The position numbers and the translations under genes are program-made. A model generated the notes under the pieces. It was not told the DNA's origin and did no database searches. It saw nothing but the letters and a program-made list of their open reading frames with translations. A DNA stretch of 64,000 bases from Haloterrigena sp. H1 (lineage in GTDB: Archaea > Halobacteriota > Halobacteria > Halobacteriales > Natrialbaceae): assembly GCF_005938085.1 (NCBI RefSeq), contig NZ_SMZK01000001.1, positions 1,674,001-1,738,000 on the forward strand, read 5' to 3'. This document shows positions 55,926 through 64,000 of the stretch, one piece after another. Every line of letters starts with the position of its first letter. The stretch's first letter is position 1.

Positions 55926-57017
55926 CTAGAAGACGTCCATCTCGGTGAGCCGTTCGGGGAGATACGTCTCCGTCACGAAATCCAATCCGTGCGACGCCAG
56001 CGCCTGCTGTTCGGACTTTTTCCCGAGATCGAGTTGCAGTTCGATCTGTTCTTCCCAGTAGTCGGTCTGGAAGCGCGGGTCCTCGAGTTCGCTCTCCAAG
56101 GCGTTGATGTCCGAATCCGAGAGAGGGTCGGTCGGCAGGTCGTACTCGACGATGTCGGCGGGCTGGATGCCGATGAACTGTGCTGCGGGGGTCGCGAGGT
56201 ACTCCGAGAGGTGGGCGGACTTGATCGAGCCGTAGGCCACCGAGCCGTAGATGCGGTACGACCACGGGTCACCGTCCGTAAAGACGGTGACGGGGAGGTC
56301 GAGTTCGTCGTGGAGCCGTTTCGTGATCCGGCGAGTCGCCCGCGCGGGCTGCCCCTTGAGGTGGACAATCAGGGCGTTGTACTCGTCGTCGAAGCCGTTC
56401 TCGACGAGTCGGTCACGCATCCCACCAGTCTCCACTGCGAGAATGAAGTCGGCGTCACAATCGAGGAAGTCGATCGTGTCGGGGTTGTTCGGAATCTGGT
56501 AGCCGCCCTCGCCGACGTCTTTCTGACAGTGGATTTCGCGTTCGCCGCGGCGGGTCTGCTCGCGGAGGTGCAGCGGTCCCATGAGCGTCGCGCCCGACTC
56601 CTCGGGGCGCATGTGGAAGTCCTCGCGGGTGACCCCCGAGACGATCTCTAAGTCTTCGATGAGCCCGTTCGATTCGTCCTGATCCGAGAACTGAGCTTCC
56701 TCGTTGTCCCAGCTCTCCGAGAGGTAGTAGAGTTCACGCAGGGTCGAGGAGCGATCCTCCTCGAGTTGGTCGGCGAGGAACTCGATGGTGTAGACTGCCT
56801 TCAGGAGCTTCCGCGCGCCGCGGACGGAGTTGGCCGACCGGGTCGACTCGCGGTCGCCGTAGACCCAGACGGCTTTGTCCTCGTCGTACTCGATGTTGTT
56901 CTTCGTCCGTGTCGGAACGGACATGTGGGGGATCTCGCCGAGTTCGAACTGGTCGTAGAACTGCGCTGCGAGATCGATCAACTGCTCTCGTGCCTGCTGG
57001 TCGTTGTCTGCACTCAT
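55926..57017 (-). CDS. top6A: DNA topoisomerase VI subunit A (Spo11-like)
   Basis: 363 residues. The catalytic tyrosine lies in [10 protein letters not shown] at Y97 or Y98, within the winged-helix domain. The Toprim domain follows: FILAVETGG with E196, and [20 protein letters not shown] with D248 and D250. The enzyme cuts both DNA strands with the B subunit's ATP-driven gating to relax and decatenate DNA. It is the second gene of a two-gene operon; its start overlaps the top6B stop by 4 nt (ATGA). Confidence 0.96.
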
Positions 57018-59473
57018 TGTTTCACGGTAAGTTTCTCGCTCTCGACGCCTTTCACGTCCAGATCGAACGTCGCGTCGTCCGGGACCTCGTACTCGAGCGT
57101 GGCCTCGTCGTCACTTCCAACCTCGGGTTCCCACTTGACGAACCACTCGCCGTCCATCTCGACGACGGTCGCGCCGTCGGAGAGGGACGTGGGTTCGGCC
57201 GAGACGATGTCGATGATCTCGAGGGATTCATTCGTACTCGAGTTGTTCTCGACGGTGACCGAGACGGCTTGTCCGTCGCCGTTCGCTTTGGTCTGGCGTT
57301 CGACGAGCACGTTGTTCATGATGCGGGCGATCGCGTCGTCGATGTCGGGTTCCTCACGGCCGGTGACTTCGGCGACCTTCGTGGCCATCTCGGGGAGGAT
57401 CGTCCCGAGGACGTTCTGTTTCTTCCGGCGCTTTTGCATCGACCGGCGCTTGTTGAGATAGCTCTTGAGATCGCGTGCCGCCTCCCGAATTGCGAGTTCG
57501 ATCTCGTCTTCGATTTCGGGGACGTTAGCGATGGCGTCTTTCGACTCGCTGGTGAAGGGGACGTTCGTCGAGGCGACGTGGACCATGATCACGACCGGCC
57601 CGTTCGGCAGGCCGGAGCCACCGGGCTGGTCGAGGCCGTAGTTGCGCCAGCCGATCGATTTGACCACGTCCGTCGTCGCACAGGCACCGCGCTGGTAGAC
57701 CAGTGGGACCCGGTTCGCAAAGCGCATGACTTCGCCGGTGCCCTCGGCGGGAAGGTCGCCACCGTAGGCGATGCCGGCCTCGACGATGAACGGATCGCCA
57801 CCGGAGACGCCGGCGTCACGCGTCGCGGAGGCGTAGAAATCGGCGTCGAACTCCTTCTCTAAGCCGGCGGTGATGAGGTCCTCGGAGATCGGTGAGAGAC
57901 ACCGCGTCGGCGGTGCCATGATGTCTGTCTCGCGCATCGCGTCGACGAGGTCGCTGGTGGCGTCGCGGTCGCCGTTCAGTTCGCGGACGAGCGGCGGGTC
58001 GTCGGGAACCGTCGCCATTACGTTCCAGACGGCCTCGACGACGTTTTCGCGGGCCGTTTCGCCGAAGGAGACCTCGTCGTACTCCTCGGTCAAGTCTGCG
58101 GCTCGGTCGACGAACTCTCGAAGCGTCGCGCGTGTGAGTCGGTGTCGTCGATCCTCGAGATCATCGAATTTCCCCGCGAGCCGATCTGCGAAGGCGTGGA
58201 TCGTCTCGTCGTCTTTCCGCGTGCTCGTCGCGTCGTCTGCGAGTTCGTAGAGGTCAGCAACCAGCCGCGAGTCGCCGTCCGCTCCGGTGGCTGCATCAGC
58301 GTCGTCTGTGTCCCCCTCAGTAGCGTCGATAAGCTCGAGCCAGACCGCCTCGACGGCGTTTTCGCGAACGGTGTCGCCGAACGTCGTTCCGTGATCGACT
58401 GCGACCTCCTCGGCGGCCGCGTCGACGACCGCGAGCAGTTCGTGGTAAGCGATGCGGTCCTCGTCTGCGACCGCGTCAGCGATGGCGTCGGCAAAGGCCG
58501 TCGTCGCCTCGGGGCCCTTGTTCGCCGTCGCGTCCTCGACTGCGGCGGCGAGATCGGCATCGTCGTGTGCCGTGGGCGGCCGCCAGCGCATCTCGCGGCC
58601 GTAGTGACGGTCGCGGAACGCGTCGATGATCGAGTCGGCGGTCTTCTTCCCAACACGAGTAAACTCCTCCTGGACGAAGCCAGAGACCGTCTGGGAGTCC
58701 GTCGCCGCCAGCATCTTCATCACGGTCCCGAGTTCGACGCCGTGGGGGTGTGGACGGATCTCCTCGGTCTCTTCGGGGAGCTGGTCGGTCGCGCGCTCGA
58801 ATTTGAAGTGTTCCTGGGGTTCGCGCAGCTCGAGGCGAGCGTGAGGGTTGACGACCGCCGTGTGCTTGATATAGTCGTGGAGTTGCCCGCGGGCGCGCAT
58901 GTTGGCCTCCATCTCGAGTTCGATGCGGGTGCCGTGGGGCCGATCCCACGTGGTCGTCTCCTCGACGCTGATCTCGGGTTCGTTTGCGTCGGTGTCGACG
59001 ATGAGTTCGAAGTACTGTGCTTCGCTCGAGCCCTGGGTTCGGCTGGTGATCTTGGCGGGCTTCCCGCTGGTCAGTTGCGAGTAAAGCACCGCAGCGGAGA
59101 TTCCGATCCCCTGTTGGCCACGGGACTGTTCGCGTGCGTGAAAGCGAGACCCATAGAGTAGCTTCCCGAAGACCTTTGGGAGCGAGTCTTTGGTTAGGCC
59201 AGGCCCATTGTCCTCGACGATCAGGCGGTAGTAGTCGCCGGCTTCTTGAATCTCGACATAGATATCCGGGAGAATACCGGCCTCCTCGGCGGCGTCTAAG
59301 GCGTTGTCGACGGCTTCCTTGACGGCCGTGACGAGGCCTCGAGCGCCGCTGTCGAAGCCGAGCATGTGCTTGTTCTTCTCGAAGAACTCGGCGATGGAGA
59401 TCGACTGCTGGCTTTCGGCCAGCTCCTCGGCGATCCCCGGCTCGTCACCGAGTGTCGACTGGAACGACGTCAT
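57014..59473 (-). CDS. top6B: DNA topoisomerase VI subunit B
   Basis: 819 residues, longer than the ~530-660 of many archaeal homologues because of an acidic helical insertion at roughly residues 320-500 ([29 protein letters not shown] and similar), common in halophiles. GHKL ATPase motifs: [47 protein letters not shown] and [17 protein letters not shown]. The transducer domain and a C-terminal beta-rich domain follow. It works with subunit A as a type IIB topoisomerase. Gyrase genes, often adjacent in haloarchaea, are not in the window. Confidence 0.96.
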
Positions 59474-60027: not shown

Positions 60028-61464
60028 CTAGCTGTGATCGTGTCCGTGTTCGTGGCCACCACGAGTGAACTGCCCCGCGAACGCGCGCTGAACGACCTCC
60101 GAGAGCGCGGGGTGGACGTGGACCGACTCCCGGATATCGTAGATCGTCCCGGAACCGGCCGTCATCGCCACGACGACTTCCTCGATCAGGTTCGAGGCGT
60201 CGGGGCCGATGATGTGACAGCCGAGGATCTCTCCCTCGAGGGAGATGAGCGGCTTGACGAACCCCTCGGCGTTCATCGCGCTCCCGCGGGCAGTCTCCTC
60301 GTATCGATACGTTCGTTTCGCGTACTCGCGGTCCGCGGCGCGCAGTTCCTGTTCGGTCAGCCCGACGCCGGCGACCTCTGGCGAGGCGAAGACGGCGAAC
60401 GGCATCGCCGTGTAGTCGACCGGCTCGAGGTCGTCGCCGAACAGATTGCGCATGACGGCCCGGGCTTCGTGGTTCGCGTTGTGTTTCAGCAGGTACTCGC
60501 CGACGATGTCGCCGAGCGCCCAGACGCCGTCTGCGGTCGTCCGCAGGTACTCGTCGGTCTGTACGAACCCGTCGCGATCGGTTTCGATACCGGCGGCCTC
60601 GACGTTCATCGTGTCGGTATTGGGAACGCGACCGGCCGCGACGAGCAGTTCGTCGCCGGTGACGGAAATCATGTCTCCCGGGCGTGCCCCGCCACCATCA
60701 TCGTAGGTATACGGGCGCGCCTCGACGGTGATCGGGTCCTCGCTCTGTAGGACCGCAGTGGCCTCGTAGCCGGGATAGACGTCGAATCGGTCCGCGTAGC
60801 GCTCGGTGAATTCGACGGCAACTTCCTCGTCGGCGTCTGGAAGCAGGTTCGGCCGCCGACTGATAATGGATACGTCACTGCCGAACGTCCCGAAGAACTG
60901 GCCCAGTTCGGCCGCGATGTAGCCGCCGCCGACGATCACGAGGTGATCCGGCAGGGTCTCCAACTGCAGTGCCTCGGTGCTGGTGAGGTAGTCGACGGTT
61001 TCGATGCCGTCGATCGGTGGAATCGCCGGGCGTGTTCCCGCTGCGACGAGGACGGTGTCGGCGGCGAGGCGCTCACCGTCATGGCTCCCGCCGTCGAGTT
61101 CGATCGTCCGTTCGTCGACGAACCGGCCCTCCGCTTCGTACAGGTCAATCCGATCCGACGAGTGCAGACCGCGCCGGATCGAGTCCGAACTGCCGTGAAC
61201 GTCCTCGGTGACGTCGCGGACGATGTCCGCGAACTGAACGTCGTTCACCGTGGCGTCGATATGGAACTCGTCGGCGCGCTCGATCGTCTCCATCACTTCG
61301 GCGCGATACAACAGCTTCTTCGACGGGATACAGCCACGATTGAGGCAGGTACCGCCGAGTCGTCCCTTCTCGACGACCGCGACCGACTGCTCCTGATTTG
61401 CCGCCACGTTCGCCACGTCGAGCCCCGACCCGGAGCCGATGACGAGGAAATCGTACGCCTCCAT
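60028..61464 (-). CDS. Pyridine nucleotide-disulfide oxidoreductase (dihydrolipoyl dehydrogenase-like)
   Basis: 478 residues. FAD motif FLVIGSGSGLDVANVAANQ; redox disulfide GGTCLNRGCIPSKKLLY with Cys near 39 and 44; NAD motif LVIVGGGYIAAELGQFFGTFG; GVWALGDIVGEYLLKHNANHEA; and the dimer-domain HVHPALSEVVQRAF with the catalytic His-x4-Glu. The C-terminus is unusual: GGHEHGHDHS, a short His-rich tail that could bind metal. No pyruvate-dehydrogenase subunits are adjacent. The protein could therefore be a free-standing mercuric-reductase, mycothione-like or bis-gamma-glutamylcystine reductase relative rather than an E3 subunit. The ATG at 61464 was preferred. Confidence 0.88.
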   Translation of the reverse strand: MEAYDFLVIGSGSGLDVANVAANQEQSVAVVEKGRLGGTCLNRGCIPSKKLLYRAEVMETIERADEFHIDATVNDVQFADIVRDVTEDVHGSSDSIRRGLHSSDRIDLYEAEGRFVDERTIELDGGSHDGERLAADTVLVAAGTRPAIPPIDGIETVDYLTSTEALQLETLPDHLVIVGGGYIAAELGQFFGTFGSDVSIISRRPNLLPDADEEVAVEFTERYADRFDVYPGYEATAVLQSEDPITVEARPYTYDDGGGARPGDMISVTGDELLVAAGRVPNTDTMNVEAAGIETDRDGFVQTDEYLRTTADGVWALGDIVGEYLLKHNANHEARAVMRNLFGDDLEPVDYTAMPFAVFASPEVAGVGLTEQELRAADREYAKRTYRYEETARGSAMNAEGFVKPLISLEGEILGCHIIGPDASNLIEEVVVAMTAGSGTIYDIRESVHVHPALSEVVQRAFAGQFTRGGHEHGHDHS

Positions 61465-61571
61465 ACCGCCGGACACGACCCGAAGCGCAATGAAGACCGG
61501 TCCGGGATATTCCGGGACGCGGGCGCCCCCCGTCGACAGCCAGTCGAGCGTCCTGAGCAGGCTGGCTCACG

Positions 61572-62576
61572 TCACTCCTCGAGCGGCGGCCACTCCCACG
61601 CGTCGGCTTCGACGACGCCGAGCAATCGCCGACGGCGGTCGGTCTGGTCCGCAAGGGCGTCGGCGAACTCCGGATCCGAAACGGTCGGAATGTCGTCCGC
61701 ACGGAGCCGCTCGAGGTTCGGCGATCGGGGGACCGCCGGCTCGGGGTCGATAAAGGACTCATCGAGTGTCTCGAGGTAGCTCTGGGCGCTCGAGCGGGCG
61801 CTCTCGACGATGGCAGGATCGGGACTGGCGTCGTCCTGAACGGCATATCGAAAGAGCATGAGCGACTCGTCGAAGATAGGGACGGCCACGGCCGAGGCGC
61901 GTTCGCCCTTCTCGCTGTGGTAGTAGTGCAAGATCGGATACGACTTGTGTTGCTCGGCGAGGGTGCTCAACTCGGAGCCAAGCGTCTCGATGCTTCGCTC
62001 GAGGCCGTCGAAATTCTGGCCGTTCCAGCCCGCACGGACGAACGCCTCGCTCCGGCCGCCCAGTCCCGTGACGGTGCTGGCGAAGGCTCGCTTGTCGGAG
62101 ACGGCCCCGAGCACGGTGAGGACGTAGGAGACGCCGAGCGTGACGAAGGCCATGCCCGTGGCCGTCGTGAACGCGCTGGCGACTTCCCAGACGTCGCCGC
62201 CGTACAGCGGGGTGTAGTCGCCGTTCCCCTCGGTGAACATCGTGTAGGCGACGTAGTAGAACCGTCCCCACCAGTCGGCGGTCCCGCCAGTGCGCGTGTC
62301 GACCAGCGCGGTCGGGTAGCTGGCGAAAATAAACGTCCAGCCGATCCAGATGAGGCCGATCCACAGCACGAGCGTCAGGGTGAGAATGAGCGGGCCGGCG
62401 AGGCTGAGCGCCCGGTCGTGGTCCCGCGTCACGAGACGGAGCCCCTTCCAGACACCGGTCGTGAATCGGCCGGAGATCGGCCCCGAACCACCGTCAACCC
62501 AGAGGGTCGTCCAGAGGATGTCGACGATCCCGCCACCGAGCAACGCGACGCCGATGGCGAGATAGATCGTGTTCAT
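61572..62576 (-). CDS. Two-helix potassium-channel-like membrane protein
   Basis: 334 residues. Two N-terminal helices (YLAIGVALLGGGIVDILWTTLW; LAGPLILTLTLVLWIGLIWIGWTFIFA) precede a pore region and a following helix: WWGRFYYVAYTMFTEGNGDYTPL then VASAFTTATGMAFVTLGVSYVLTVLGAV. The TEGNGDYTP segment aligns with the K+ channel filter T-x-G-Y-G-D with Asn replacing Tyr, so selectivity may be altered. A ~190-residue cytoplasmic domain follows, helical and without a recognisable RCK motif. Its start overlaps the stop of the downstream-coordinate SGNH gene by 4 nt, so the two are translated together. Confidence 0.85.
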   Translation of the reverse strand: MNTIYLAIGVALLGGGIVDILWTTLWVDGGSGPISGRFTTGVWKGLRLVTRDHDRALSLAGPLILTLTLVLWIGLIWIGWTFIFASYPTALVDTRTGGTADWWGRFYYVAYTMFTEGNGDYTPLYGGDVWEVASAFTTATGMAFVTLGVSYVLTVLGAVSDKRAFASTVTGLGGRSEAFVRAGWNGQNFDGLERSIETLGSELSTLAEQHKSYPILHYYHSEKGERASAVAVPIFDESLMLFRYAVQDDASPDPAIVESARSSAQSYLETLDESFIDPEPAVPRSPNLERLRADDIPTVSDPEFADALADQTDRRRRLLGVVEADAWEWPPLEE

Positions 62577-63832
62577 TCGACGACCGCTCGCTGCTCGACG
62601 ACGTCGGCCAGCACGTCCGCGATTTCCGCGTTCGTTTCGGGGCTGTAGTGGCCACCCTCTCCACGCTCGACGTACAGCGACTCGACGTCGCCGTCGTCGG
62701 GTGAGAGGTGCGTCGCCATGTCGATTGTCGTCAGCTCGTCGTAGCGCTCGTCGAGACGTTCCATGAGATCGCCGTAGATCGGCCCATGTTCGGCCTCGTA
62801 TTTCGCGTAGCGAAGCTGCTGGACCATCACGAAGACCGGTTCGAACTCCTGGTCGTCCGCGTAGTCGACGAACTCCTCGATGAGCGCGTCGAAGAGGGGT
62901 TCGTGGGTCTCGAATAGCCGATCGTGGTACCGCACCCGGGGCCGTTCCAGCCGCAGCGCCGACCGCGTCTGTGCCTGATCGAAGTCGATTCCAGGGACCA
63001 ACCGGCCGAATCGGCGCTCGAGTTCCTTCCCGGCCGTGTAGCCGGCGTACCGGAGGTGTTCTCCCTTCTCGAGGAAATCAATCGTGTACGGCCACGTCGC
63101 GAAGTGGGGCTCGAACCAGTGATCGTAGTGGAAGTCGTACGCACGGAGGAAGTCGGCCTTCGACTCGAGGTCGAGCAGGTCTTCCTTCTCGTCGATGGGA
63201 CTCTCGACGCGCTTGAGGCCGTTCTCTCCCAGCACGTACCGGGGTTTGACCGCCAGAATATTGCCGAACTCCTGGTAGTGTTTCCAGACGCTCAAAATGC
63301 GCGCGATCGAGGAGGCGGTGACGACCATGAAGACGTAGTCGGTCGGGTCCTCGGGGTATTTTCGTTTGAGTCGCATGAGCGCCTGATCGAGCCCGTAGTT
63401 GCCACCGCCGTAGTTGGCGACGTGGGTATCGAGTTCCGCCGCGAGGTAGTGCTGGAACGTTTCGTCGTTGTCGACCTCTCGGCAGAAACAGTAGGAATCA
63501 CCGTAGGTCGAGACCGTGAGATCGGCGTTCTCGTCGCGGTCTCTGGCGGGACAGACCCGACTGGCGTACTCGTCGGTCGAGTAGGTCACCACGCTGCGGA
63601 CCTCCTCGCCGGGGAGGTGGTCGCCCGTGTCTTTCTGTTTCTCACGGTTCGGCTGGGGAACCCACCCGAGTTCCGGGTCGAAGCTGCTGAACTTCCCAAG
63701 CAACTCCCGGTCGATCTCGGGGAATTCCTCGGTGGCGACCGAGGGGAGCCGCTCGAGCGCTCGATACGACGTGACCTCGAGTATCACGACGCCACCGACG
63801 AGAGCGATCGCCATCGCGACGAACGGAAGCAT
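62573..63832 (-). CDS. SGNH-hydrolase-like secreted or anchored protein
   Basis: 419 residues. An N-terminal membrane anchor (MLPFVAMAIALVGGVVILEV) leads outside. The block-I motif is VSTYGDSYCFCREV (G-D-S) near residue 111; block III looks like VANYGGGNYGLDQ near 139; and a late GGHYSPETNAEIADVL near residue 395 would supply the catalytic His. The length and layout resemble acyltransferase or esterase SGNH proteins acting on surface polysaccharide (AlgX or DHHW style). It is first in a pair with the channel-like gene, an odd combination. The upstream promoter region lies in the last 168 nt of the window. Confidence 0.75.
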   Translation of the reverse strand: MLPFVAMAIALVGGVVILEVTSYRALERLPSVATEEFPEIDRELLGKFSSFDPELGWVPQPNREKQKDTGDHLPGEEVRSVVTYSTDEYASRVCPARDRDENADLTVSTYGDSYCFCREVDNDETFQHYLAAELDTHVANYGGGNYGLDQALMRLKRKYPEDPTDYVFMVVTASSIARILSVWKHYQEFGNILAVKPRYVLGENGLKRVESPIDEKEDLLDLESKADFLRAYDFHYDHWFEPHFATWPYTIDFLEKGEHLRYAGYTAGKELERRFGRLVPGIDFDQAQTRSALRLERPRVRYHDRLFETHEPLFDALIEEFVDYADDQEFEPVFVMVQQLRYAKYEAEHGPIYGDLMERLDERYDELTTIDMATHLSPDDGDVESLYVERGEGGHYSPETNAEIADVLADVVEQRAVVE

Positions 63833-64000
63833 CGGCTCATCGTACTGGAACGGCGGGGAAGGGGATTATGCCGGAATGTGCCATCTCCGTATCATCGACG
63901 CGACTGGGCGCATCCGCTACCCGTCATCGCAAGGTCCCGGATCGCGATCGACACGCCGCTTCGAGGCCGTCAGCGGACCGTCGTGACCGGGACCGGCGAG
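63833..64000. other. Upstream region at the window end
   Basis: 168 nt with no convincing reading frame on either strand within the visible part. It would hold the promoter of the SGNH gene. Sequence outside the window could reveal another gene. Confidence 0.4.

Follow-up and report, generated by a model that had tools for sequence, protein, structure and literature searches.

In canonical potassium channels the tyrosine of the TxGYG filter is described as a defining feature, and the NaK channel, whose TVGDGN filter is non-selective, is reported to be K+-selective in a TVGYGD version (PMC9822992). A filter with asparagine at its core has been described in NaKTs of Tsukamurella paurometabola: the PMGNGP filter is non-selective, the side chain of Asn66 is directed into the pore and coordinates Ca2+, and the authors report no similar filter in other channels in the databases that they searched (PMC5052707). 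Overlapping gene pairs provide a second point of comparison, because tightly coupled translation has been reported for them (PMC6728339, PMC10666635) and coupled pairs often encode the subunits of a complex (PMC10666635).

Here we analyse a 64,000-nt stretch of DNA from Haloterrigena sp. H1 (the window), in which the start of a channel gene overlaps the end of a gene for an SGNH-fold protein (Table 1). The window genome is Natrinema-like, and the closest named relatives of the SGNH protein are in two N. hispanicum strains (95% and 93% identity), in a search from which the window's own genome records may be absent. We regard the non-tyrosine-filter channel family, more than the pairing, as the part worth following.

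Table 1 Features of the channel–SGNH locus in the window
Feature	Position	Strand	Basis or remark
Channel gene	61572..62576	(-)	334 aa ORF
Selectivity filter TEGNGDY, channel residues 115-121	62214..62234	(-)	Sequence
Stop/start overlap ATGA, 4 nt	62573..62576	(-)	ORF coordinates and sequence
SGNH-fold protein gene, upstream of the channel	62573..63832	(-)	419 aa ORF; N-terminal hydrophobic helix
Block V-like E392-G-G-H395	62648..62659	(-)	H395 in 48/48 rows, E392 in 46/48
Block III-like GGGN, residues 142-145	63398..63409	(-)	N145 in 47/48 rows
Block I VSTYGDSYCFC, candidate nucleophile Ser113	63482..63514	(-)	S113 in 47/48 rows
Predicted N-terminal helix, probably membrane, residues 2-28	63749..63829	(-)	Model and hydrophobic sequence
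Usp gene, 3' end only, rest beyond window edge	63970..64000	(-)	
Pyridine nucleotide-disulphide oxidoreductase, downstream neighbour	60028..61476	(-)	Relative annotated dihydrolipoyl dehydrogenase
DNA topoisomerase VI subunit B (Top6B)	57014..59473	(-)	

The channel and its filter

The predicted layout of the channel comprises helices at residues 3-25 and 33-50, a transmembrane segment (60-85), a pore helix (102-112), the filter and a second transmembrane segment (128-170), followed by a helical C-terminal region that contains LHYYHS; the order of transmembrane segment, pore helix, filter and transmembrane segment is accompanied by a T-x-G-x-G-D motif. Ion_trans_2 (PF07885) matched 43 of the 48 aligned family members at E ≤ 0.01, whereas the window channel alone gave E 0.06, below the cut-off. 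When the family profile was searched against the PDB, Kv channels came out best (E about 1e-4), and the alignment placed GNGD opposite GYGD. The AlphaFold model (pLDDT 87) resembled KirBac-type pores in VIA-align (Z 9-10 over about 100 residues), among them a Magnetospirillum pore (Z 9.8, rmsd 3.2, 100 residues), and also NaK, including its D66N mutant (PDB 2q69; Z 8.4, rmsd 5.6, 99 residues), all within the range of Z (7-10) at which, as the tool warns, a match can reflect no more than a shared helical arrangement; Foldseek returned no match at E ≤ 0.001 for this model or for that of the SGNH protein. We therefore regard the channel assignment as carried by the sequence evidence rather than by the structure match. 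Taken together, the domain, profile and pore-model matches agree with the original prediction that the protein is channel-like, and they support its reading as a pore-loop cation channel with an Ion_trans_2-type pore and one P-loop, presumably assembled as a tetramer. The window channel, like its paralogue from the same genome, showed a single Ion_trans_2 stretch and a single filter motif, and this one pore loop rules out a two-pore-domain K+ channel.

The filter departs from GYGD at the key tyrosine, as had been pointed out. The search for this variant in relatives that had been suggested at the same time covered 81 distinct homologues whose filter could be read: 77 have GNGD, 3 GIGD and 1 GTGD (Asn, Ile and Thr, respectively, at the tyrosine position); one more homologue, a 91-aa fragment that had no filter, lies outside this tally. 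A one-off change of GYGD is ruled out by these counts. The family consensus is T-(D/N/M/L/E)-G-N-G-D-(Y/F): Gly-x-Gly-Asp and the filter Thr were kept across the tallied homologues, and 55 of the 81 have an Asp, Asn or Glu just before the first filter Gly. Six bacterial plasmid relatives were more varied, with GNGD in Planococcus and Pontibacter, GLGD in Indioceanicola, GTGD in Gloeocapsa and Deinococcus, and GGGT in Sulfitobacter. Tyrosine was absent from the K+-channel filter position in all 87 sequences (the 81 homologues and the 6 plasmid relatives), and the GNGD filter, as far as these alignments can tell, is a hallmark of the whole channel family. Our search of an open-access library found nothing on GNGD as a selectivity filter and no selectivity data for the family; a query for haloarchaeal potassium channels and selectivity filters returned channelrhodopsin work and an essay-type review.

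By analogy with NaKTs and NaK D66N, the side chain of the filter Asn can face the conduction path, so that the channel would be expected to conduct monovalent ions either non-selectively or with little preference for K+. Divalent or soft metal ions may also act on the channel, and its helical C-terminal region may be a regulator. It is possible that the protein is instead an ordinary K+-selective channel that tolerates Asn in a filter lined by backbone carbonyls, given the retained Gly-x-Gly-Asp and Thr, the leading place of Kv channels in the profile search and the annotation of relatives as potassium channels. We consider this unlikely, because Asn or Asp occupies the Tyr position in the non-selective NaKTs (PMC5052707) and NaK (PMC9822992) and because most homologues carry Asp, Asn or Glu before the first filter Gly. 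On these analogies GNGD channels would probably discriminate poorly in favour of K+, and selectivity for this ion is not to be taken for granted.

The SGNH-fold neighbour

The classical block V motif of SGNH enzymes is Asp-x-x-His. The upstream protein carries the motif strings STYGDSY, GGGN and GEGGHYSPETN, and has the block I GDS serine and the block III Asn (GxN), together with an SGNH fold in the model; the acidic position of block V is Glu, replaced by Arg in 2 of the 48 alignment rows, and the His is invariant. Of these rows, 44 are distinct and two are pieces of a single frame-split gene, one of which accounts for the exceptions at both S113 and N145. Three cysteines are also conserved (C94 in 46 of 48 rows, C115 and C117 in 47 of 48). 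The split gene belongs to Natronolimnohabitans sp. A-GB9 (locus L138), outside Natrinema, and the channel adjoins it; a divergent homologue (L170, genome G142) has an altered C-terminal motif, RDRGGHPSP.

Neither Pfam (no model at E ≤ 1) nor NCBIfam (no meaningful match) placed the window protein, distant members were likewise without a meaningful match in either, and a sequence comparison with the PDB gave chance-level matches only. The structure model is weak (pLDDT 63, with the catalytic loops at 113-115, 117-121 and 384-394 under 50). Among the 50 matches listed by VIA-align, it aligned with Z 12.8-14.8 over 161-228 residues; most of these were titled esterase, lipase, thioesterase or acyltransferase and they include CgnD, TesA, acetyl esterases and PatB, with a designed scaffold also among them. 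Fold and Ser, Asn and His motifs together sustain the predicted SGNH-type enzyme, even from a weak model. The upstream gene probably encodes a membrane-anchored SGNH-fold hydrolase or acyltransferase that would use Ser113, Asn145 and His395, with Glu392 in place of Asp. The polysaccharide acyl-modifying role suggested for it is a guess that the modelled fold would allow, but the genes identified around it are for Usp, TauE and Nramp.

Which side of the membrane the enzyme faces bears on that role. In the Natrialbaceae rows that we viewed, the N-terminal helix is not preceded by Lys or Arg and is soon followed by Arg or Lys, the three cysteines are conserved, and TesA is among the fold matches, all of which would suit a cytoplasm-facing lipase- or thioesterase-like enzyme rather than a surface polysaccharide enzyme. 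Arg or Lys precedes the helix in several distant homologues, however, and the model aligns about as well to PatB and acetyl-xylan esterases, so that we regard the cytoplasmic placement as somewhat less likely than not. A search of the open-access library on SGNH proteins in haloarchaea yielded a carboxylesterase paper.

Conservation of the gene pair

The 4-nt overlap described originally was confirmed, with both genes on the same strand. Pairwise comparison of 14 Natrinema genomes (91 pairs) gave median amino-acid identities of 78% for the channel and 88% for the SGNH protein, with median dN/dS of 0.20 and 0.13, respectively; because they are conserved under these ratios, both ORFs behave as real genes, and a frame artefact is ruled out. 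Neither protein had a PHROG match at E ≤ 1 that would point to a phage origin. The neighbours identified for the SGNH gene are Usp, TauE, Nramp, the channel, the oxidoreductase and Top6; TauE and Nramp lie beyond the Usp gene, outside the window (locus L108). Some relatives without an SGNH gene still have Top6B next to the channel: in three genomes (G032, G035 and G052) the channel sits beside Top6B and no SGNH gene was found, and in other relatives the channel lies elsewhere.

Within Natrinema, the ATGA junction was present at all 28 channel starts examined. Of these genomes, 22 have a full-length SGNH gene, 1 (G025) has it truncated at a contig end, and 5 have it damaged or lack it; the channel is intact in all 5. 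The gene is frame-shifted in G016 and reduced to remnants in G018 and G024; in G005 the frame is open, with the block III glycines missing and the sequence beside Ser113 changed; in G017 there was no SGNH match, with what by eye appear to be the last SGNH codons before the channel. A 29th genome (G006), with only the 3' end of the channel at the locus and a distant copy elsewhere, was kept outside the 28. The surroundings of the pair also differ within the genus. Nramp at five Natrinema loci (L122, L123, L125, L139 and L148) is 47-49% identical to that of the window, no TauE was found there, and the Nramp/TauE block looks replaced or reshuffled; at L119-L121 Nramp is 84-98% identical. The Nramp, TauE, Usp and SGNH genes are absent or remnants at L110-L113, and the interval from the proteasome alpha gene to Top6B looks variable.

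To place the pair in a wider setting, we used a class sample of 292 genomes. The SGNH protein matched in 43, of which one small fragment was dropped to leave 42, and the channel matched in 100, of which 8 were set aside (their sole match being a fragment or another channel) to leave 92. The channel was encoded anywhere in 36 of the 42 SGNH genomes and within 10 kb in 26, so that 6 had the SGNH gene alone; 56 of the 92 channel genomes had no SGNH gene. TauE or Nramp, placed from searches at E ≤ 1e-30 and only where noticed near the SGNH gene, lay within 10 kb of it in 30 of the 42, slightly more often than the channel did. Seven SGNH genomes had TauE or Nramp nearby without the channel, three had the channel without TauE or Nramp (one of them, G025, owing to a contig break) and nine had neither. 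All 29 Natrialbaceae SGNH genomes encoded the channel, within 10 kb in 25; in the other four (G049, G050, G051 and G151) the channel is elsewhere and TauE or Nramp is still beside the SGNH gene. Where the two genes are near each other elsewhere in the family, anything from less than 100 bp to several kb separates them, and other genes intervene. Outside Natrialbaceae the SGNH gene had the channel nearby in 1 of 13 genomes and TauE or Nramp nearby in 3, and neither link is therefore general. The sole near case there (G243, of another family) has the channel about 0.9 kb from the SGNH gene and divergent from it; an AAA/RFC-like gene lies on the other side of that channel (L166, G243:C1:1310662-1313831).

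At eight distant named SGNH loci, no channel was found in the stretch examined. TauE and Nramp are divergent from the SGNH gene in Haloarcula and two metagenome-assembled genomes (MAGs), whose 10-kb flanks contain no channel, and the remaining five (L140, L143, L145, L146 and L149) have neither these genes nor the channel. In two loci, from Halalkalicoccus and a MAG (L140 and L149), the SGNH gene adjoins a gene resembling that for the replication factor C large subunit, not TauE or Nramp. Halopiger and Halobiforma loci (L130, L131 and L136) keep TauE-Usp, and the channel is absent at the locus.

The original prediction had seen in the two genes an unusual, translationally coupled pairing of channel and surface enzyme, to be refuted if the pair were not conserved in other genomes. 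Conservation held in the genus, at every junction examined, and proximity held in most of Natrialbaceae; outside the family it failed except in the one genome with divergent genes. A functional pairing was not supported: channels commonly occur without the enzyme, four Natrialbaceae genomes have the channel elsewhere, and five Natrinema genomes retain the channel despite damage to, or loss of, the enzyme gene. The same four genomes and the persistence of the channel beside a damaged enzyme gene weaken a dedicated channel–enzyme system. We think it probable, with some reserve, that these are two separately evolving genes, for a GNGD cation channel and an SGNH-fold enzyme, whose blocks are adjacent in Natrialbaceae. 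An SGNH-Nramp/TauE/Usp block would there adjoin a channel-Top6BA block, with ATGA as the junction in Natrinema.

That junction may couple translation, and channel–SGNH coupling is plausible by analogy with other overlapping genes; by itself it would not make both proteins one system. Many prokaryotic gene pairs overlap by ATGA, and tight coupling is reported for them; coupling alone is therefore weak evidence of joint function. A functional pair, with the SGNH protein as a modifier or gate of the channel or with the two in a shared envelope or ion-homeostasis pathway, and with ATGA fixing their ratio, would accord with the constant Natrinema junction, the presence of the channel in every Natrialbaceae SGNH genome and its usual proximity, the divergent neighbours in G243 and the frequent encoding of complex subunits by coupled pairs (PMC10666635). 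We judge it improbable in view of the many genomes with one gene and not the other, the five Natrinema genomes that kept the channel alone and the wide, gene-filled gaps in the rest of the family. Local gene order seems to have made neighbours of the two genes, which do not look like parts of a dedicated two-part system: as read from the sequences, a real, ordinary-looking overlap between two separately conserved blocks.

Copper-gene neighbourhoods and known channels

Relatives of the channel on other branches were frequently found near copper-handling genes. In a set of 50 genomes, chosen for a channel outside the window branch and with G006 added, a Cu-ATPase or a DUF326/Csp-like gene lay within 10 kb of at least 26 of 62 other-branch channel loci, against 0.94 expected for random positions with shared ancestry disregarded; window-branch loci in the same genomes showed the link in at least 2 of 13. 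Scores decided which of the two sets a locus joined, and at least one such locus (G037) is missing from the counts. ATPase genes (at least 18 of 62) were counted only at about 640 bits or more from the best matches listed, and DUF326/Csp-like genes (at least 18 of 62) from a list that left out most matches under about 75 bits. The ATPase was identified as a copper-translocating ATPase (TIGR01511, 615 bits) and the second gene as DUF326 by Pfam, with a Csp1 family match below its cut-off. A tree of 86 channel sequences, whose deeper nodes are poorly supported and which leaves loci beyond the 86 unplaced, put five loci (G264, G316:C15, G188:C4, G102:C1:3043020 and G051:C1) in a wider window clade (support 0.998); moving them gave at least 25 of 57 other loci and at least 3 of 18 in the window clade. 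L085, L089, L090 and L097 are examples of copper-linked loci, as are the bacterial loci L187-L189. An annotated four-helix-bundle copper-binding protein neighbours the channel in three of the six bacterial plasmid relatives (Indioceanicola, Pontibacter and Gloeocapsa); the other three had no such neighbour in the stretch examined.

These neighbourhoods suggest a physiological role for the channel family: given relatives near copper-handling genes, it may take part in the response to metal or redox stress. A narrow search of the open literature for a copper role listed a review and, among the papers listed, nothing on the family. More speculatively, the GNGD family could be a distinct archaeal and bacterial class of cation channels with a pore ring of four Asn side chains, conducting or sensing ions other than K+ (for example, monovalent soft metal ions or Na+) in copper or redox stress, with the window branch re-tuned by an extra acidic or amide ring (TD/TE/TN-GNGD); we regard this full picture as rather unlikely. 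The copper-gene neighbourhoods, a side result, may be more consequential than the gene pair. A family annotated as potassium channels carries a filter core that is non-K+-selective where studied, the GNGD, GIGD, GTGD and GLGD filters form a natural series that bears on the role of the filter tyrosine, and channel activity of one member would show whether the potassium-channel annotations mislead.

With respect to known proteins, the SGNH protein shares its fold and its Ser, Asn and His motifs with SGNH/GDSL hydrolases such as TesA, acetyl-xylan esterase, PatB and CgnD, but differs from them in having no Pfam match, an N-terminal hydrophobic helix, Glu-x-x-His and a long insert between GGGN and GGH (183-194 and 219-247 under pLDDT 50). 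The channel belongs by sequence to the family annotated as 'potassium channel family' or 'two pore domain potassium channel family protein', although the latter name is misleading for a protein with one pore loop and no GYGD. In NaK D66N (PDB 2q69), as in the window channel, Asn replaces the K+-channel Tyr; the filter of wild-type NaK is TVGDGN, whereas that of the window family ends in Asp, often has Asp, Asn or Glu at the Val position and is accompanied by a long C-terminal region. NaKTs, too, is a pore-loop channel whose filter centres on Gly-Asn-Gly, as in the window channel, but prolines flank its filter (PMGNGP), and it is a Ca2+-activated channel with two transmembrane segments (PMC5052707).
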